Origin: Deltaproteobacteria bacterium
GTDB lineage: Bacteria; Desulfobacterota_B; Binatia; UBA9968
Direction: 5' to 3'
NCBI GenBank assembly: GCA_005879255.1
Contig: VBKY01000177.1
Span: forward strand, 1-35,581
Length of the DNA: 35,581 bases
Made by a program: the position numbers and the translations under genes. The notes beneath the pieces were generated by a model. The model was not told the origin of the DNA, ran no database searches, and was given only the letters and a program-made list of their open reading frames with translations. Positions 15,557 through 35,278 of this stretch are shown here, in pieces; within the stretch, counting starts at the first letter, position 1; the number at the start of each line of letters is the position of its first letter.

Positions 15557-15578
15557 GTGTGTCAGAATTATATTGACA

Positions 15579-15672
15579 GTTCCAATCGTTCCACAGGTTC
15601 CAGCCGTTCCAGTCGTGCGAAGAGCGCTTCCGAAACTATTGGAACGGTTGAAACTCCTGGAACGAATGGAAC
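15579..15672. repeat. 33-bp-arm inverted repeat built from 9-bp GTTCCANNN units
   Basis: Left arm 15579-15611 and right arm 15640-15672 are reverse complements at 27 of 33 positions, with a 28-base spacer. Each arm is four 9-base units: GTTCCA starts at 15579, 15588, 15597 and 15606; TGGAAC/TGAAAC starts at 15640, 15649, 15658 and 15667. It fills the gap between two convergent genes, so the RNA hairpin could end transcription from both sides, although no T-tract follows directly. It may equally be a mobile or microsatellite-derived palindrome. Confidence 0.8.
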
Positions 15673-15676
15673 GCTT

Positions 15677-16132
15677 TTAGAGCTTTTCCCGCGAAGCTTC
15701 GAGCGCCTGATGCATCGGCTCGATGTCGATGACCAGCGACGATAGCTGCAACTTTTCTTCGCGGAGCTTTTCCGGCACCTGGCACACCACTTCCTCTTCT
15801 AAAACGTGATAGACGGGGATCTTGAGTGCGACGCCGGCAAGAGGTCCGGCGTAACTCGGGTCGCCCTCGGTCACCGTTTCGGCAAAGACTTCGACGCCGT
15901 TGGCTTCGCCGTTGCCCAACACGACTGTCAAATTTTCCGGACCATACTGATCCGCCAGGCGCTTGATGACTCCTTGGTTTTCAAAGTTCATCGCGCCTGC
16001 GGCGGTTCAGACGAAACACTCAGTCACCTGGAAAACCACCTCGTAGCCGGCCCCCTCGAGGCATTCGGCGATGATTGGTCCAGGCACGCCATCCCGTTCG
16101 CCGATGGCGATAATTTTTTTTCCTTTAACCAT
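15677..16132 (-). CDS. grdA: Glycine/sarcosine/betaine reductase selenoprotein A (UGA-decoded)
   Basis: Protein A of the glycine reductase complex; it carries the carboxymethyl-selenoether intermediate between protein B and protein C. Reading from ATG 16132 (CGGAGGT six bases upstream) gives [19 protein letters not shown], then ECFV, an in-frame TGA as codon 42, then [11 protein letters not shown] and the rest of the protein to a TAA at 15677. C39-x-x-U42 matches the CxxU redox motif of known GrdA, and [18 protein letters not shown] and [15 protein letters not shown] match the family body. Length 151 with Sec, close to the 157 or so of clostridial GrdA. A plain ORF call would start at Met48 (15991) and lose the active site. 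It lies ten bases after grdC. Confidence in family and Sec decoding is high; catalytic role in this host depends on genes not in the window. Confidence 0.93.
16007..16009 (-). other. Selenocysteine UGA codon of grdA
   Basis: TGA on the minus strand at codon 42, in the conserved context C-F-V-U-T-A-A-G-A-M. Bacterial SECIS elements lie just 3' of the UGA. Here a short CGCC-GCA-GGCG inverted repeat (16004 down to 15994) is visible, but it is too small to be called a SECIS with confidence without folding. Confidence 0.9.
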
Positions 16133-16142
16133 CTGACCTCCG

Positions 16143-17603
16143 TTAAACTTCATTGCGATCGACGAGAAAAGAGCAGCCGTCCGAAAGTTGCGTCATGCGG
16201 CCCAGGAACAAGCTTCCTTTAGCGATCAGTAAAGCGTTGCTAATCGTACCGCTCTTCAAGGCCTCCAACGCGTGTCCTAAGTAAACAATTGCAGAGGGGA
16301 TATGCCCCTGCGTCGGCGCATAGCCTACCATGCCCCGCGCGCGGACAAAATCCTGCATCTGGTTCTTGCCAATCAGGCCACGCATCACGGCAAGCGCCGC
16401 CAGCGTCAAATAATTTGTTCGCGGCACATCACCGCTACCCGAGGGCACGGTGATTTCCGGATTGTGCAGCTCCACCCCATAGCGGTCGACGTCGGTCAAA
16501 TTCATCCCCATCTTCGCCAGCGGCTTTTCCGCCAGATATTCCGCCATCGCCTGAGGTAATGCTCCCGCGCGCACCGGGTGAAACGCAGCGGAATCCAGCC
16601 GCATGCAAGTTTGATTGGGCTTCGCTGGAGCGAGGATAACGGCGAAGCTGCCGAGAACATCCTCCAGCACGGGCATGTTATTTTTGAGATGAGATTCGAA
16701 TTTCATGCCGAGCTTGGCCAGCGATCCGCCCGCGACCACTGCTACCTTCCGGGCGACTCCGGAGTGAATCAAGCTCGCACCATGCACCATTGCGTACATC
16801 GGCCCAGCGCAGAATGCTTTCACATCCGACCCCGCCGCGTTGATGCAGCCGACATCCTCGGCGATCGCTTTGGCTAAATTTCCGCCGCCGCGATTATAGC
16901 GGTCGCCCACGGCCTCTTCCGAGCAGCTGATCACGTAATCGATTTCCCCGGGGTCGACGCCAAGTCCACTCAGGGCCGAGCGTAATGAATGCCCGGCGGT
17001 AACTTTAGCCGACAAATTCTCCAGCAGCACGTCAGCGGTCAAATTGGTGTCCTCGGCGTGGCCGGATTCGAAGGCGCCTATCAACCGCTCGCCAGAATAT
17101 AGAGGTAGCGCACCCTTTTCACAGAGCACTTGAATTTCCGCCAACGGTCGCCGCTTTGGCGCTCGGCCGATCGCATGCCGGGCACCGCGCTCGCGACACC
17201 AATTTTCTTCTAACGCAACGAGATCAAACTGATCCGCGCCCGCGAGCAGCGCGTAAAACTCGTCTTGATCGACAAGGTCGCCGAACCGGCCCATCGGAGT
17301 CGCGCCTTCGATCAGTCTTTCATACCACGGCTTGGGCAGATCGCCGAGTTTTTCGGGCGCGATATTGCCGATGTAAACCTGATGCGGCGCGTAAGCCGTC
17401 ACCGCATCGAAATCGCGCAGCCGCTTTGCCAACTGCTCGCCCAGCGCGGGGTTGGCGCGAATTTCGCGCGACGGCTTCGAACCATAACGCACCAAGTCGG
17501 GCACATGCGCCAGCGAATAGAAAACACCTTCAATCCCAACCCGCGATGGTCTCACGTTTTCTTTGAATTCACTCACGCCTGTGGCCTCGTCCCTCTCGCC
17601 CAT
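16143..17603 (-). CDS. grdC: Glycine reductase protein C beta subunit (thiolase/FabH-like fold)
   Basis: Protein C releases the acetyl group from selenoprotein A and yields acetyl phosphate. Strong matches to Grd[12 protein letters not shown] near the N-terminus, [19 protein letters not shown] with a thiolase-type Cys265, [30 protein letters not shown] and [19 protein letters not shown], ending with [15 protein letters not shown] [16 protein letters not shown] place the start at ATG 17603, two bases after the macro-domain stop, giving 486 residues against about 510 in clostridia; a GTG about 24 bases further in is possible. The open frame continues upstream to 17837 but that part only overlaps the macro gene. 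grdA follows directly. GrdD, the other protein C subunit (PlsX-like), is not in the window. Confidence 0.93.
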
Positions 17604-17605
17604 TC

Positions 17606-18160
17606 TTACCCGGTAAACGCGTGATGTTTCAAGAACACCTCGGCATCGGCGGCGCCGAAGAACACGAGGCGCACTTCCTTCAGTGATTGGTCTGTGCTGA
17701 GGAATTGCTCGATCGCTCGTGACGATACGTTCGCGGCCTCGTTCAAGGGATAGCTGTAGACACCGGTCGAAATCGCCGGAAACGCAATAGTCGCTAGGCC
17801 ATTCTCCGTCGCCAGCATCAATGAGTTGTGGTAACAAGCCACCAACAATTCCGCTTTGTCCTTGCCACCGCGTCCATATACCGGGCCAACCGTGTGAATC
17901 ACGTGCTTGGCGGTCATTTTTCCTGCGGTAGTGATCACGGCCTGTCCTGTAGGCAGGCCATCCGGGTAGCGAAGTCGGCGGATTTCTTTACACTCGGCTA
18001 ATATCCGTGGCCCGCCGGCACGATGAATCGCCCCGTCGACTCCGCCTCCGCCCAACAAGCTGCTGTTAGCCGCGTTCACGACGGCGTCCACCTGTTCTTT
18101 CGTGATATCGCCGACTCTGATGAGTACGCGGCTAGCCAGGAATGTTTGTAACGCTGCCAT
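17606..18160 (-). CDS. Macro-domain protein (O-acetyl-ADP-ribose deacetylase type)
   Basis: Binds or hydrolyses ADP-ribose derivatives. Hallmarks: VGDITKEQVDAVVNAANSS, then GGGGVDGAIHRAGG, TGQAVITTAG, HTVGPVYG and IAFPAISTGVYSYP, with C-terminal VRLVFFG. ATG 18160 is supported by an AGGGAGG site; the frame stays open to 18217. 184 residues, close to YmdB. It ends two bases before grdC, so it is probably translated from the same message. Why an ADP-ribose protein should travel with glycine reductase genes is not known; chance operon fusion is possible. Confidence 0.92.
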   Translation of the reverse strand: MAALQTFLASRVLIRVGDITKEQVDAVVNAANSSLLGGGGVDGAIHRAGGPRILAECKEIRRLRYPDGLPTGQAVITTAGKMTAKHVIHTVGPVYGRGGKDKAELLVACYHNSLMLATENGLATIAFPAISTGVYSYPLNEAANVSSRAIEQFLSTDQSLKEVRLVFFGAADAEVFLKHHAFTG

Positions 18161-18936
18161 AGCGCCTCCCTGATCCTGTATCACGATCGACCGAGTCAGA
18201 GTTGCACCGTGAAGCATGACGGTAGAGCATAGCGCAACACCCCACTAGCGCCTCCTGACCTCAATTTTATTCTTATGCAGATCTGGTCTATTCACCCTCG
18301 ACGAATTGATCGCCAATGCGAGACCACAGCAAGTAACATCAAAAGTATTGCCAGCGCATCACTGAGCGCAGAATGTCTCGAAGCAGGTGATTGAAGAGCC
18401 GCAGGCAGACACTTGAAGTTTAGAAACGTGTTAGTGCTTCATTTCCTTCATTTCGATGACATAAGTCAATACCTGATCCTTCACTGGCAGGATAGACCCA
18501 TTTGCCACTCGTTGTTTGTTTCTCCGCCTACCCCGACTTATGATGTCAATGGCCGTTCACATTTCAAATCGACGTCGTCGCTCACCCGCTGCCGACGCCC
18601 GATGAACCAATACACGAGGCCAAAAAGCTCACATCCACAAGGTAGATCGAGGAGCGTTAAGCAATTCGATCCAAAGGATCCCATCCCAACGACGTGTGTG
18701 AAGTAATATTGTCTCAATGCAGTATGCCCTCTTTGTATGAATGCTTGACCATAGTCGAGGCTCAGCATGGCAATGTGCGTCATTTCCAGCTTGGCATGAT
18801 GTATTTTCTCTATGCCGTTTTTCTTGGCGTTTTGGGCCGCTTGGGGTGCGTGTTGGGCGGTGCTGCGCTCAGCTTTGCGGTGGTAGCGATAAAAAGCCAA
18901 TTGCCCGGCGTTTCATCAATCATGAACCGCGCTTTG
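18161..18936. other. 776-base gap without a confident gene
   Basis: Open frames exist on both strands (for example 18538-18900 minus, 18694-19068 plus), but none shows a recognisable domain, a good ribosome site or a convincing protein composition. No tRNA, hairpin terminator or repeat was recognised. The first bases must hold the promoter for the macro-grdC-grdA run. The gap may contain gene remnants. Confidence 0.4.
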
Positions 18937-22956: not shown

Positions 22957-23511
22957 CTAGGCAAACTCGATCATCCTCAACTTAGTGAAGCGGAACTGCT
23001 TGTGCGCCGACGCCGGCAAGATCGTCATCTGACGGATCGCATACTCATGTTCGTATTGACGTCTGGCGTTGACGCCGTCCAAAGGGATGACGACATCATA
23101 ACGATAAATTCGCGCCGCGGTCGTCGCCGTATAGAGCACGGCAAAATTGGTCGCCGAGCCGACGATAACTAGGTCCCGGCAATTTGATTTGTCCAACTCC
23201 CCCTTGAGCTCGCCGCCCATGAATTTGTCGAAACCGTCGGGATATAAGACCGGTTCGCTTTGACGCCGCTCGAGCGGCGCCGCGACTTCGCCCATCGGTG
23301 TCCCTCTACCGGCAGCGGAGATGGTGTAGAGAATCGGCACGGAAGTTTTTCTCGCCCTTTCCAGAAATTCTGCCAGTGGTTCCATCAATCGCGCGCAAAC
23401 CTCATTCGGGTTTTCGCACCGCGCACTCAAATCCAGCACGACGATTGCCGTCTTTTTGCTGTCCAATTTCAGCCGCTCGGGCTGTGGTCGGTTAGGGCCT
23501 TCCTGGGTCAT
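22957..23511 (-). CDS. Isochorismatase-fold (cysteine hydrolase family) protein lacking the catalytic Cys
   Basis: 184 residues from ATG 23511, which has GAGGAG seven bases upstream; the frame extends six codons further to a TTG. The fold is recognised from KTAIVVLDLSARC (Asp27 of the triad), the Lys in GFDKFMGGEL (Lys96), and IVGSATNFAVLYTATTAARIYRYDV. In active members the last motif reads TNxCV; here the Cys position is Ala124 (codon GCC), so covalent catalysis is not expected. Its start overlaps the end of the gamma-like gene by 20 bases, pointing to co-translation. It may be a regulatory or structural partner, or bind a ureido-type product released by the Hyu-type enzyme; both are guesses. 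Confidence 0.85.
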   Translation of the reverse strand: MTQEGPNRPQPERLKLDSKKTAIVVLDLSARCENPNEVCARLMEPLAEFLERARKTSVPILYTISAAGRGTPMGEVAAPLERRQSEPVLYPDGFDKFMGGELKGELDKSNCRDLVIVGSATNFAVLYTATTAARIYRYDVVIPLDGVNARRQYEHEYAIRQMTILPASAHKQFRFTKLRMIEFA

Positions 23512-23764
23512 CTGGATGCTCCTCGACAAAATCAGTATCCAAAAGCACGGCGCACGACGGGCAGCAAATCTGCCGGAGCAGATAGTCGCCGCTCAAGACC
23601 GACATCAATCCACCGGCTTTGGTCGGCGGCAACAGACGAACCTTGCCGAACCGGCGCCAATCCTGATCGGCGTGGCAGAAGCGATACTCACACTTGCCGC
23701 AGTGGATCCACTCAACGCCATCCAAGACCGCGACCGCCAAATTCTCCCGTAGAGGATGAGTCAT
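23492..23764 (-). CDS. Acetone-carboxylase gamma-like zinc-binding protein
   Basis: 90 residues. Six Cys in two clusters, C22-x-x-C25...C30 and C67 C68-x-x-C71, around a Trp-rich body (HCGKCEYRFCHADQDWRR; QICCPSCAVLLDTDF), as in the small gamma subunits encoded after the large hydantoinase/acetone-carboxylase subunits. Known gamma subunits are often longer (about 160 residues), so this is a compact form. It begins two bases after the HyuB stop and overlaps the next gene by 20 bases. Likely a structural or metal-holding subunit of the HyuA-HyuB complex; the assignment rests on Cys pattern and position. Confidence 0.75.
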   Translation of the reverse strand: MTHPLRENLAVAVLDGVEWIHCGKCEYRFCHADQDWRRFGKVRLLPPTKAGGLMSVLSGDYLLRQICCPSCAVLLDTDFVEEHPDDPGRP

Positions 23765-23766
23765 TC

Positions 23767-25590
23767 TTATGCCCGCAATCGCTCACGCTTCAAACCAAGC
23801 CGCAGCTTTTGTGTCGCGGCAATATCCGGCGCCGCGCCATCGATCACCACGCCGTAAATTTCTTGCGCTTCCTCGCGCGAAACGATGCCGGCTTCGACAT
23901 CGCTCAACACCCGTTCAGGCTCGCGTTCCAACGGATCGCCGTAGCCGCCGCCGCTCGACATGCGCATGTAAAGAACGTCATTCTTGCCGATGTCGAACTC
24001 GCAATAGGGCAAGAGCTTGCTCGTGCCACCGAGCTCTGCTAACTGGTCGGGTGAAATATCTTCTGCGATGGTTTCTTCGACGCGGGCGCCTTCGGTTAGC
24101 ATGAGCAAGCTCGGCGCACCGGGATAACCGCCAAACATTCCCTGGCCGGAGTTTCTCAGCCCGGCCACTCCCAGCGCGACACCTTTGATTTTTCCTTCGG
24201 GAGCATCGTGAACCGTCAGCGCCGATTCGCCGCCGGTGCCGCCGCGAAACTTGCCCGCGCCAGCGCCGCCTTTGGTATTGCGCCGAAACAGATAGAGCAG
24301 CGGAAAATTCGCTTCGAGCCACTCGATGTTGTGGCAGCTAAGCCCGCGCCCGGTATCGTCGCCATCTTTGTAAGAACGCGCGCCGGTGCCGTCCAGCGCG
24401 CCTTCGGAAAGCGTCGAGACGTAATACTTGCCATGCTGATTGACGCCAGCGTGGCGCGCCAATCGGTGGCCGGCGTTGAGCGCCATCACCTCGCCGCGCC
24501 ACTTTTCGCTGGTGGCGAGCATCTGCATGATCGCTGAGTTGGCAACAAACTTTACCGTCGCGCCGCCTGACGTCGTGTTCAGTGAAACCGACGCGGGCGG
24601 CGTCGGATTCACCACCGTGCCTGGAGGCGCGACCACGTCAATGGCTTTCAGCGCGCCGTGGTTTTTAGGCAGATCGTACGCCAGCGTGCACAGGATCGCT
24701 TCGTAGCACGCGCCAAACGTCGCGTGGTACGGCAAGTTGATGCCCTTCTTCGCTTGCGGGCTGCTGCCGGTGAAGTCGAAAAACAAGCGGTCGTCTTTTT
24801 TGTTGAGAGTGACATAGACTTTCCAAGTGTCGCCGGCGTGAATGCTGCCGCTATCGCTCCAGGTGCCGTCCGGGATTTCCGCAATGCGCTTTCTCAGAAT
24901 CGTTTCGGAATAATGCAACATCTCCTGCGATACCGCGGTCACCAGCTCGGGGCCGAACTGTTCGAACAGCGCCTGCATCCGCGATTTGGCGACGTTGTTC
25001 GCCGCGATCTCGCACTTGAGATCGAGCCCAACCATCACCGGTTGGCGGGTCATATTAATGAAGGCGTCGAAAAGATCTTTGCGCAGCTCGCCCCGGTCGA
25101 CCAATTTGATGCCGGGAATGCGAATCCCTTCGTGGCATATTTCCGTCGCCCCGGGAGAGTTACCGCCGGGCGACATGGCGCCGATATCCATCACATGGAC
25201 AAAGGTCGCGCTCCAGCACATCAGTTTGCCGCGAAAGTGAATCGGCGAAATCATGTAGACATCCGACTGATGGATCGCTGCCAGGTAAGGATCGTTGAGC
25301 AGAAATATGTCGTCCGGGTTGATGCCGCCGCTATTCTCGAACCGCTCGATGATTCTTTTCACGGCGAAACCGGCGCAGGCGACATGCCAGCCCATGGAAT
25401 CGCCGGCCGACAGCACGTCGCCATTGGCGAGATAAAGCGACGCCATGTAGTCGTGCATCTGCGTTGTGTTCACCGTGCCGCCGACGCGCTCCAGCGCCGT
25501 ACCCATCTCTTTGGCGATCTGGTAAAGCCGGTGCGAGAGAATTTCAAAAGTTATCGGGTCGACGCTGCTGACAATCGGGTTTACTGCCAT
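23767..25590 (-). CDS. hyuB: Hydantoinase B / acetone-carboxylase alpha-like subunit
   Basis: Large subunit of the HyuB/oxoprolinase family. Starts with SSVDPITFEILSHRLYQIAKEMGTAL, followed by GDSMGWHVACAGFAVKRIIE, HQSDVYMISPIHFRGK, and ends with SSGGGYGDPLEREPERVLSDVEAGIVSREEAQEIYGVV, all hallmarks. 607 residues, a little longer than the 500-600 of stand-alone N-methylhydantoinase B and shorter than acetone carboxylase alpha (about 770). Together with HyuA it hydrolyses cyclic amides or carboxylates ketones with ATP. The start is three bases after the HyuA stop. With a gamma-like gene following, a carboxylase-type complex is as likely as a hydantoinase. Confidence 0.9.
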   Translation of the reverse strand: MAVNPIVSSVDPITFEILSHRLYQIAKEMGTALERVGGTVNTTQMHDYMASLYLANGDVLSAGDSMGWHVACAGFAVKRIIERFENSGGINPDDIFLLNDPYLAAIHQSDVYMISPIHFRGKLMCWSATFVHVMDIGAMSPGGNSPGATEICHEGIRIPGIKLVDRGELRKDLFDAFINMTRQPVMVGLDLKCEIAANNVAKSRMQALFEQFGPELVTAVSQEMLHYSETILRKRIAEIPDGTWSDSGSIHAGDTWKVYVTLNKKDDRLFFDFTGSSPQAKKGINLPYHATFGACYEAILCTLAYDLPKNHGALKAIDVVAPPGTVVNPTPPASVSLNTTSGGATVKFVANSAIMQMLATSEKWRGEVMALNAGHRLARHAGVNQHGKYYVSTLSEGALDGTGARSYKDGDDTGRGLSCHNIEWLEANFPLLYLFRRNTKGGAGAGKFRGGTGGESALTVHDAPEGKIKGVALGVAGLRNSGQGMFGGYPGAPSLLMLTEGARVEETIAEDISPDQLAELGGTSKLLPYCEFDIGKNDVLYMRMSSGGGYGDPLEREPERVLSDVEAGIVSREEAQEIYGVVIDGAAPDIAATQKLRLGLKRERLRA

Positions 25591-25593
25591 GCT

Positions 25594-27696
25594 TCAACCT
25601 CCTAAATGGATTCTGATGTTGCGATACTGGTCCATGACGGCGCGGTCGCGCGGATTGACCACCACTGTGGTGACCGGTGTCTCGACGATGACCGGACCGG
25701 CGAATTCGGCCCCTGGGTCCATCCTGGTAAAATCGTAGACGCGCGTGGAAACGAATTTTCGCTCCTCTTCGAAATAAACCTCACGCTCACCCTTGAGTGC
25801 CCGGGCGCCATCCGATTTATGCAACGGCTCGGCCTTGATATCGGGCTTATTCAATAAGCCGCTGGCAGTGAGCCGAAAGGTCAAGATTTCCTTTCCCGCT
25901 TCACGGTAGCCCGACCCTTGGCCAAAAGCTTTTTCGTACATCTCGTCAAACCGCGCGTAAAGCCCTTCCAGATCCGTTTTCGTGATCGCCGCCGCCCCGG
26001 GCGCGAACGCCACGTTGAGCTCATGAACTTGGTAACGATACCGCATGTCGACGCTCCGGCTGACGTGAATATCTGTTTCGGTGAAACCCGCGGCGTTGAG
26101 ATCCTCAAGCGCCCGCTGCCACAAGCCCTCGAAATTTTCATTGACCCGCGCCGGCGCCACCGGCACGACGACGTGATCCGACTTGCCGTACTCGTATACC
26201 ACGTCGGAACTGATCAGGCCCGTCGCGCCGTGCACCGACGCGGTCAAAGGTATGACCACTTGCCGAATACCCAGCTCCGCCGCATACCGGCCAGCGTGCA
26301 CAGGCGCCGCGCCGCCAAAGGCGAATAGGACGAAGTTGCGCGGGTCATGCCCTTTCTCGACCGTCGCTTTGCGAATCAGATCGCTCATGTGCGAATTGGC
26401 GATGCGATAAATGCCGCTGGCGGCTTCCACTTCACTCATCTTGAGCGGCTCGGCGATTTTTTTGCGGATCGCATCCAGCGTTTTCGTTTTGGTTAACTTC
26501 ATGCGGCCGCCGAGGAAATAGTTTTCGTTGAGATAGCCCAAAACCAGATCGGCATCGGACACCGTCGGCTCCGTACCGCCGAGATCGTAACAGACGGGTC
26601 CCGGCGACGCGCCCGCGCCGCGCGGCCCGACTTTGAGCAAACCGGTTTCCGGATCGATCCAGGCGATGCTTCCGCCGCCGGCGCCGATGGATTCGACCCA
26701 GATTTTGGTCGAGAGAATGCTGTAGCGCAAGATGACCGGTTTGTAGTCGCGCTCGATGACGCCGTCGCGCACGATACTGACTTTGAAGGTCGTGCCGCCC
26801 ATATCGGTGGCGAGAATATTCTTTTCGCCGATATGCTCGCCTAAAAACCGCGTGCCGACGATGCCCGCTGCCGGGCCGGACTCGATGACCCCGACAGCGT
26901 TCTTGCAGGTCGCCTCGATACCCAATACCCCGCCATAAGCTTGCATGATCAGTGGCTCGCGCTTGAGTCCTTTGCTTTTGAGAGTGCTCTGCAGGTTTTG
27001 CAGGTAATTGGAAATTTTAGGACCGATGTAGGCATTGAACACCGTGGTGGCGGCGCGCTCGTACTCGCCGAGATACGGCGCGACTTCACTGGAGAGCGTA
27101 AAGAAGAGCTTGGGATATTTTCTCGTCAAAATTTCCGCCAGTAGCTTTTCGTGGGCGTCGTTGACGATCGACCAAAGAAAGCAGACGGCGATCGATTCCA
27201 CGCCTTTAGACACCAATCGGTCGATGGCTTGTTCCGCGGCTTCAACATTGAGCCGAATCAGCTCCTTGCCCTTGTAATCGATCCGCTCCGGCACTTCTTC
27301 GACCAGTTTGCGCGGCACGAACGGCTCAGGCTTGTCGAGTGCCGAGCGATGGGCGATTTCGTTTTCGGTAAGACCTTCAGCGATCTTGCCGCGCATCATG
27401 TGCAGACTGTCGCCGAACCCCTTGGTCATAATCAGCCCGGTCTTAGCGCCCGCCCGCGTGATCAGGGTGTTATCGCCGATCGTGCAGGCGTGAAAAAATA
27501 ACCGCGTGCCGCTCAACAATTCGTCGGCGCCTCCCAGCCCGAGATTTTGCGCAGCGTCGCCAGTCGCGTTCAATGCCCCTTGGGAAAAATCCACCGGCGT
27601 CGATAGCGATTTGCCGATCGTTACTCGACCTTCCTCATCGACCACGACGCAATCGGTAAATGTCCCGCCGATATCCACGCCGACAACGTAATTCAT
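25594..27696 (-). CDS. hyuA: Hydantoinase A / acetone-carboxylase beta-like subunit
   Basis: ATP-binding subunit of the hydantoinase/oxoprolinase/acetone-carboxylase group. N-terminal phosphate motif GVDIGGTFTDCVVVD, the second ATPase motif LATDMGGTTFKVSIVRDG, ESIGAGGGSIAWID with GPRGAGASPGPVCY and FVLFAFGGAAPVHAGRYA. 700 residues is standard. It activates the substrate by phosphorylation, with HyuB completing the reaction. ATG 27696; it lies 64 bases after the upstream binding-protein gene. Substrate not predictable from sequence. Confidence 0.92.
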   Translation of the reverse strand: MNYVVGVDIGGTFTDCVVVDEEGRVTIGKSLSTPVDFSQGALNATGDAAQNLGLGGADELLSGTRLFFHACTIGDNTLITRAGAKTGLIMTKGFGDSLHMMRGKIAEGLTENEIAHRSALDKPEPFVPRKLVEEVPERIDYKGKELIRLNVEAAEQAIDRLVSKGVESIAVCFLWSIVNDAHEKLLAEILTRKYPKLFFTLSSEVAPYLGEYERAATTVFNAYIGPKISNYLQNLQSTLKSKGLKREPLIMQAYGGVLGIEATCKNAVGVIESGPAAGIVGTRFLGEHIGEKNILATDMGGTTFKVSIVRDGVIERDYKPVILRYSILSTKIWVESIGAGGGSIAWIDPETGLLKVGPRGAGASPGPVCYDLGGTEPTVSDADLVLGYLNENYFLGGRMKLTKTKTLDAIRKKIAEPLKMSEVEAASGIYRIANSHMSDLIRKATVEKGHDPRNFVLFAFGGAAPVHAGRYAAELGIRQVVIPLTASVHGATGLISSDVVYEYGKSDHVVVPVAPARVNENFEGLWQRALEDLNAAGFTETDIHVSRSVDMRYRYQVHELNVAFAPGAAAITKTDLEGLYARFDEMYEKAFGQGSGYREAGKEILTFRLTASGLLNKPDIKAEPLHKSDGARALKGEREVYFEEERKFVSTRVYDFTRMDPGAEFAGPVIVETPVTTVVVNPRDRAVMDQYRNIRIHLGG

Positions 27697-33759: not shown

Positions 33760-34317
33760 CTATCGCGTGAGCGTGAGATTCACTTTCGGCACCGCGGTCT
33801 CCGCTTCGGGCACCGAAAAGAATTCGCTCGGCTGAAACTTGAAAAAGCCGGCGAGCATGTTCGACGGGAAGACTTGCTGCTTGGTATTGTACTGCGTCAC
33901 CAGGTCGTTGTAGTACTGGCGCGCGAAGGCGATCTGATTCTCTGTCGTCGTTAACTCTTCCTGCAAGTCCAAAACGTTTTTGCTGGCCTTGAGCTCCGGG
34001 TAGTTTTCCATCAGCGCAAAAACTTTTCCCAACGACTGTGTCAGCGCGGCCTGTGCTTCGGCGGATTCTTTCACTCCGGTGGCTGCCATCGCTTTGCTGC
34101 GCGCGTCGATCACTTTTTGCAGCGTATCCTGCTCGTACTGCATGTACCCTTTGACCGTTTCGACGAGATTTGGAATCAGATCGTAACGCCGCTTGAGCTG
34201 CACGTCGATTTGTCTCCAGGCATTTTGAACCCGCAGCCTGAGTGCGGTTAGCGTGTTGTAAGTCGAAATGATCCAAATCCCGAGAACAAAAACGATTGCC
34301 CAGATAACAAAGATCAT
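33760..34317 (-). CDS. lemA: LemA family protein
   Basis: 185 residues from ATG 34317, which overlaps the stop of the upstream gene (ATGA) and has GGAGGGG nearby. One N-terminal membrane helix (MIFVIWAIVFVLGIWII) is followed by the helical body: YNTLTALRLRVQNAWRQIDVQLKRRYDLIPNLVETVKGY, AYYNDLV-like ARQYYNDLVTQYN, and FPSNMLAGFFKFQPSEFF near the end. Cellular function is not established; LemA genes often sit next to M48 proteases or TPM-domain proteins, as here. Confidence 0.93.
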   Translation of the reverse strand: MIFVIWAIVFVLGIWIISTYNTLTALRLRVQNAWRQIDVQLKRRYDLIPNLVETVKGYMQYEQDTLQKVIDARSKAMAATGVKESAEAQAALTQSLGKVFALMENYPELKASKNVLDLQEELTTTENQIAFARQYYNDLVTQYNTKQQVFPSNMLAGFFKFQPSEFFSVPEAETAVPKVNLTLTR

Positions 34318-35278
34318 AAGGCGCGCGCCCCTCCCCAATCGTCGCGGAACAATATCGCGTTGGTGATGTCGCGCGCCCGCGCCGCGCCGGTCATAACCAT
34401 CACACGCTGCATCTCTTCGGCCAAAATAGCGAATATTCTCGCGACACCGTTGGCGCCGAGCGCGAGCGCCTTGATGATGTCGCCACCGTTTCGAATGCCG
34501 CTATCGAGTAGCACGGGGACTTTTCCGCCCGCGGCGTCAACAACTTCCGGTAGAGCTTCCAACGCGGCGCGGTTAAAGTCCAGAATGCGGCCGCCGTGAT
34601 TCGAAACCACCAACGCATCGGCGCCGGCGTTCACCGCCGCCCGCGCGGCATCCGCGCCCATGATGCCTTTGACCACGACCGGCAGGGAAACCTGTTGCTT
34701 CATCCATTCGATATCCTTGGTTGTCGACTTATGTCCTCTGCGCGGCTTGCCGTCTTTTGTGGATAACCGCACTTCGTCACCGATCTTTACCGGCTTGACG
34801 GTATCCATGGTAATGACCACCGCGGCAAAGCCAAGATCCTCTGAAAGCTTGGCGTACTCGGAAACCTCTTCCTTACCGCGATTCATGTAGGCCATAAACA
34901 CCAGAGGCGATCGCGCCAATCTTTGGGACTGAACTTAGCCGCTTGGCTCACCAACATCATCGCTCCGGCCCGATCCGTGCCCTCGGCCACTTCGCGCTCT
35001 GCGTCTTTTCCAATTAAGCTAAAACTTCCCACCGGCGCCGTGATCGCCGGGATCGGCAGGGTGTGGCCGAAAAGTTCCACGGAAATCTCTGGGTCGGCCA
35101 CGTCGTGAAAAATCTTCTGGCGAAAAAGATACTGGCGGAACGCGCGCGAATTGCGATGAAAAGTAGCCTTTGTTTCCGCCGCGCCATTGAAATGTTTCCA
35201 TGCTTCCGCCGGTGCCTTTTGGCGCATAATCTCTCGCAGCTCGCGGAGTCCCATCTGTTCGAGTGGTTTCTCAATCAT
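34314..35278 (-). pseudogene. FMN-dependent alpha-hydroxy-acid oxidase, frameshifted and with a loop deletion
   Basis: Family of lactate/glycolate/mandelate oxidizing flavoproteins. The first frame (from ATG 35278) has FGHTLPIPAITAPVG and ends after AAKFSPKD; the second frame resumes at LARSPLVFMAYMNRG, so one base is missing near 34920. The second half has LPVVVKGIMGADAARAAVNAGADALVVSNHGGR and DSGIRNGGDIIKALALGANG. After GANGV the usual LIGRP...GLA segment, which holds the FMN phosphate, is absent (about 19 residues), and the text jumps to ARIFAILAEEM. Two independent lesions make it likely non-functional. Its stop overlaps the LemA start. It begins seven bases after the VOC stop. Confidence 0.8.

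Follow-up and report, generated by a model that had tools for sequence, protein, structure and literature searches.

GrdA as a selenoprotein encoded beside grdC in a Binatia contig, and a GrdD-less variant of the reductase complex in its relatives

The contig VBKY01000177.1 (assembly GCA_005879255.1, Deltaproteobacteria bacterium; GTDB lineage Desulfobacterota_B, Binatia, UBA9968), analysed over its 35,581 nucleotides and hereafter called the window, carries on its minus strand a gene for GrdA, selenoprotein A of the glycine reductase complex, next to a gene for GrdC. The window GrdA is a real selenoprotein from an established family, which ordinary gene finding shortens. GrdA itself is of a known kind; its relatives show the complex in a new form, which has no GrdD and whose component B resembles the fluoroacetate reductase component FarEB in what is missing. 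The features on which the analysis rests are the following:

15677..16132, minus strand: grdA, selenoprotein A, 151 amino acids (aa) with the TGA at codon 42 read as selenocysteine (Sec)
16007..16009, minus strand: TGA codon, Sec42 of the CxxU motif CFVU
16137..16141, minus strand: GGAGG, likely grdA ribosome-binding site, read from the sequence
15952..16005, minus strand: hairpin directly 3′ of the TGA, candidate bacterial Sec insertion sequence (SECIS), from fold and conservation
16143..17603, minus strand: grdC, beta subunit of component C, 486 aa when started at ATG 17603, 477 aa when started at GTG 17576

A sequence-only reading had proposed that the minus strand encodes GrdA from ATG 16132 to the stop at 15677; coordinates, frame, start and stop all hold, for a protein of 151 residues. 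The ATG lies 10 bases after the grdC stop, which ends at 16143, and is preceded by the GGAGG (16141-16137), the likely ribosome-binding site. The standard open reading frame (ORF) call is indeed 104 aa long, from ATG 15991, and loses the first 47 residues. With TGA read as U, the context of Sec42 is TECFVUTAAGAM, and the assignment to GrdA with its CxxU motif is borne out by Pfam GRDA (E 1.7e-54, 184 bits for a cut-off of 22, residues 3-146, nearly end to end) and by the NCBIfam selenoprotein A equivalog NF040748 (188.5 bits, cut-off 130).

The reading of the TGA as Sec is upheld by its conservation and by the constraint on the codons before it. Between the window and each of four related loci (L001, L002, L003 and L009), codons 1-41 show 17-23.5 synonymous and 6.5-7 non-synonymous changes, with a dN/dS of 0.043 and 0.072 in the two unsaturated pairs, synonymous change being saturated in the other two. 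Purifying selection acts on this stretch. Codon 42 is TGA in 14/14 sequences, namely the window and 13 loci, nine of these from Firmicutes; L014, which covers the last 20 residues only, was left out of the count. We also searched 145 genomes of the class to which the relative G003 belongs (hereafter, the class): 31/32 GrdA matches, spread over 29 genomes, contain a single TGA, and the remaining match, in G028, reaches only 22 bits and is probably spurious. The protein database yielded 998 relatives, and 109 of the 120 listed are 104-aa truncations. Five full-length proteins stand among the matches listed. Position 42 is W in three of them (P0003, P0004 and P0006), probably a TGA read under code 4. 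In two close GrdA relatives, P0002 and P0005, position 42 reads G and L respectively in place of Sec, through real loss or error. A Cys form of GrdA is not known in the available text of PMC1794560.

The Sec insertion system that this reading implies was seen in the relatives only, five draft genomes reached through GrdA. SelA, SelB and SelD each pass their cut-off in 4/5, SelD with an in-frame TGA of its own, and the three genes share one contig in G001, G004 and G005. tRNA-Sec passes the Rfam cut-off in 3/5, and ARAGORN confirmed the tca anticodon in those three. G003 has tRNA-Sec with SelA, SelB and SelD all below cut-off, which is consistent with an incomplete draft; the Sec proteins are present in G002 and G005, where it is tRNA-Sec that stays below cut-off. 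The hairpin after the TGA is a plausible SECIS. A 66-nt fold starting just before the TGA reaches -28.5 kcal/mol (z -4.5; 0/200 shuffles as good), and the same fold gives -26.5 to -29.6 in six close relatives and is weaker in Firmicutes and other class members. Folds of 50 nt starting at the TGA are unremarkable (z -1.45 to 0.77 in six sequences, -1.34 in the window). The consensus from seven sequences has 22 pairs, two of them broken and one compensatory, too few changes for covariation to decide. The 3′ arm is nearly without synonymous change in five sequences, and synonymous constraint after the TGA is weak, 474 of 20000 shuffles reaching the observed value.

The window GrdC passes NF040746 (547 bits, cut-off 450) and has a thiolase/KAS III fold with Cys265 as the candidate nucleophile. 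All 36 sequences compared agree on Cys265, Asn381 and His434, a set that we take to be thiolase-like. We considered that GrdC might have regained a FabH-type histidine (H380, Q in Firmicutes) and set this aside given the thiolase-like look of the invariant set; the H/Q change stands as a bare observation. Of the 145 class genomes, 27 have a GrdC above the cut-off, all among the 29 with GrdA, and G120 and G134 have fragments. The window GrdC is without the C-terminal tail of its Firmicutes counterpart. The class proteins are about 30 residues shorter at the C-terminus than Firmicutes GrdC, in 13/13 chosen class sequences against 8/8 from Firmicutes, where GrdC was found in 8/9 loci. The GrdC of L002 (3073-4495) is split over two ORFs in a draft genome and was excluded from the GrdC alignments; the GrdA of that locus is intact.

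In glycine reductase, acetyl phosphate is made on component C, and the role of GrdD is the release of acetyl phosphate. GrdD passes its cut-off in 0/145 class genomes (best 28.1 bits) and, in a cut-off search, in none of the five close relatives. The same search recovered it in 5/5 Firmicutes genomes with GrdA, at 516-590 bits. Weak matches of 18-28 bits still appeared in the class and are probably PlsX, judging by their length and place. Within the window, GrdB, GrdD and GrdE were not found among the 38 proteins, a subset of the ORFs, scanned with Pfam.

Component B is altered as well. In the relatives, grdE-grdB pairs lie at other loci, away from grdC-grdA. GrdB is present in 5/5 close relatives with GrdE adjoining, and strong matches (E < 1e-80) occur in 33/145 class genomes, including 28 of the 29 with GrdA; the weaker matches in other class genomes are partial. 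The Firmicutes GrdB motif is UGTCTRCG in 9/9, and 29 of 30 distinct class sequences fitting the search pattern around U are without UxxCxxC. The exception, L123, comes from G138, a genome with no GrdA match and a GrdC fragment only. In all five close relatives the best GrdB reads UGTSTRSG. In a longer set, selected by a pattern around both U and HGG, both cysteines occur in 0/32 class sequences, and none of these 32 matches the GrdB or GrdF motif given in the available text of PMC9751293, of which the GrdB motif is found in 9/9 Firmicutes sequences. Some GrdB fall outside these counts, L029 for instance, and L123 is outside the 32-sequence set.

Five class GrdB, read through their TGA, pass the general family TIGR01918, and the substrate-specific models were missed by the proteins scanned from the relatives, five for each model. 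The scores were 397-446 of 602 bits for glycine GrdB (TIGR01917), 417-501 of 800 and 194-269 of 780 for sarcosine GrdF (NF040794) and GrdG (NF040793), 375-447 of 775 for betaine GrdH (NF040795, GrdB proteins) and 116-225 of 675 for FarE (NF053623, GrdE proteins). Among GrdE ORFs of 400-470 aa, two cysteines common to Firmicutes (9/9) are missing in the class (0/28), 4/28 having another cysteine nearby. From the available text of PMC10838667, we infer the two columns to hold the processing cysteines that serve formation of the pyruvoyl group. The classical glycine, betaine or sarcosine reductase chemistry that the sequence-only reading had named does not simply follow, since GrdD, the GrdE cysteines, UxxCxxC in most GrdB and the substrate-specific NCBIfam matches are wanting in the relatives. 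The 8.3 Mb genome G140 holds at least 13 GrdB-family matches, each above 378 bits (13 of 24 candidates scored), and at L139 several GrdB stand beside GrdE and substrate-binding proteins, a pattern that we read as an expansion of B components. Two gene groups recur near grdE-grdB at L169-L176, one having a thioredoxin-like start (cluster c5, in 7 loci) and the other consisting of luciferase-like flavin enzymes (cluster c7, in 6 loci), both named from the sequence start.

Compared with known systems, the relatives share with the glycine reductase complex GrdABCDE of Clostridia (e.g. C. sticklandii) the CxxU of GrdA, GrdC adjoining GrdA, the GrdE-GrdB pairs and Sec in GrdB. They differ by having no GrdD, no pair of GrdE cysteines, no GrdC C-terminal tail, a GrdB that is mostly UxxSxxS, UxxCxxS or UxxSxxC, and the order grdC-grdA, with a macro-domain gene added in the clade of the window. 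The nearest precedent is the fluoroacetate reductase FarEB of Synergistota (Cloacibacillus porcorum). As far as PMC10838667 goes in its available text, FarB is without CxxC and FarE without the two pyruvoyl-forming cysteines, as in GrdI; the relatives show the same absences (L123 being the CxxC exception), and in both cases one GrdA is fed by several B components. Unlike the relatives, C. porcorum keeps grdD in its genome (grdABCDEX, same source), and the relatives miss the FarE cut-off. Betaine reductase GrdH/GrdI offers a further likeness, since GrdI is not a pro-protein according to that text, yet the GrdH cut-off is missed. We found no report of a GrdD-less complex among the titles and abstract beginnings listed from the open literature. 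The occurrence of GrdA outside Gram-positive anaerobes, put forward earlier as unusual, is no novelty, since the accessible part of PMC1794560 already has it in Syntrophus, Desulfuromonas and Treponema; in that of PMC12827605, glycine reductase in the ancestor of Desulfobacterota is unsupported. In a GrdA tree (rows of at least 140 columns with the pattern [QE]CFVU), the window GrdA and five class rows group at full support, and one weak branch (78/89) splits class from Firmicutes rows; the branches are long, so we do not read the tree further. The taxon label given with the tree is Myxococcota, and the GrdC relatives carry names starting with Candidatus Binatia, Candidatus Limno, Candidatus Eisen and Terriglobales.

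Taken as a whole, these observations are best explained, and with somewhat better than even confidence, by a GrdA in the UGA frame next to grdC that serves a GrdD-less complex with substrates forming no Schiff base and with acetyl-CoA as its outlet. In such a complex, the substrates bound by component B (GrdE and GrdB) would be alpha-substituted acetates without Schiff-base formation; their carboxymethyl group would go first to the Sec of GrdB and from there to Sec42 of GrdA; and after reduction the cysteine of GrdC, the thiolase-like subunit, would carry an acyl thioester. Because there is no GrdD, the acyl group would most likely be handed to CoA, giving acetyl-CoA and not acetyl phosphate. 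Both the transfer of acetyl to CoA and a substrate other than a primary amine are inferred. Several observations weigh against this proposal. The GrdD control spans Firmicutes only, the relatives are draft genomes that come with no completeness figure, and an unrelated protein could stand in for GrdD. Of the 30 grd genomes, 17 have an acetate kinase above the cut-off, including four of the five close relatives, which keeps acetyl phosphate in play as a product. The GrdB of L123 retains both cysteines (UGTCTRCG), and an acyl-CoA ligase-like neighbour is seen in a single locus. The idea that acetate kinase was lost together with GrdD fails on the same 17/30 genomes.

Around grdC-grdA, the window and its relatives show further genes. 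Directly upstream of grdC lies one more feature:

17606..18217, minus strand: macro-domain protein of the O-acetyl-ADP-ribose deacetylase family

This gene ends 2 bases from the grdC ATG, and the order macro-grdC-grdA is kept in L002, L003, L009 and L151, with a phosphorylase gene intervening in L001. Directly 3′ of grdA in L003 (10492-12564) stands a gene resembling ADP-forming acetate-CoA ligase. We rejected this enzyme as a fixed partner, as it occurs in L003 only, while L138 and L143 have hydantoinase A as their 690-aa neighbour. At 22957-27696 of the window, an isochorismatase-family gene, hydantoinase B and hydantoinase A lie on the grdA strand with substrate-binding proteins around. The spacer after grdA (15560-15676) contains many repeated words resembling GTTCCA/TGGAAC in both orientations, possibly a terminator or repeat element. 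Finally, the FMN-dependent dehydrogenase gene at 34314-35278 looks frameshifted, since two ORFs that overlap there in different frames each match this family.

Other explanations have to be weighed against a GrdD-less outlet to acetyl-CoA. The strongest, which we nevertheless regard as rather unlikely, is an ordinary glycine, sarcosine or betaine reductase in which an unrelated or strongly diverged protein replaces GrdD and the product is still acetyl phosphate. It agrees with the acetate kinase genes and with a GrdA that retains the motif and cut-off of its family. A diverged GrdD should nevertheless have been seen, since the search listed matches down to 18-28 bits, probably PlsX, which it would be expected to equal or exceed; no unlabelled ORF family recurs in more than 7 of the 41 clustered loci, as delimited by a crude ORF caller; and the GrdC tail is missing along with GrdD.

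The hydantoinase genes suggest another route, in which hydantoinase A/B and an N-carbamoylsarcosine amidase-like hydrolase would convert N-methylhydantoin to sarcosine for reduction by the Grd complex. Clostridium FS41 links N-methylhydantoin, N-carbamoylsarcosine, sarcosine and sarcosine reductase in the available text of PMC4417704, the window has candidates for these steps on the grdA strand, and hydantoinase A stands beside grdA in L138 and L143. We hold this route to be improbable: the GrdF and GrdG cut-offs are missed by far, sarcosine is bound as a Schiff base according to the accessible part of PMC10838667 and the pair of GrdE cysteines is absent, the hydantoinase has matches to acetophenone carboxylase and caprolactamase too, all below cut-offs, and its genes lie at least 5 kb from grdC. 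A genuine stop at the TGA, or a faulty assembly there, with the 104-aa ORF or nothing made, is suggested by the G and L in two of the five full-length relatives among the matches listed, and we give it hardly any credence in view of the conserved TGA in the loci and the class, the constraint 5′ of it and the Sec machinery of the relatives.

The GrdD-less complex that we favour may have a wider reach. As a more tentative proposal, which we consider possible though short of probable, this class of soil and sediment organisms would use GrdC-GrdA as a hub for many non-pyruvoyl GrdE-GrdB adaptors, cleaving alpha-substituted acetates without a primary amine and forming acetyl-CoA directly from GrdC without GrdD. 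For the family, selenoprotein GrdA is cut short in most of the database matches listed, and filters built from clostridial motifs would miss the component B of this class. Genomes with Sec-containing GrdA, GrdB, GrdC and GrdE and without GrdD allow the part played by each subunit of component C to be tested, and they hint at a second outlet of the complex, acetyl-CoA.
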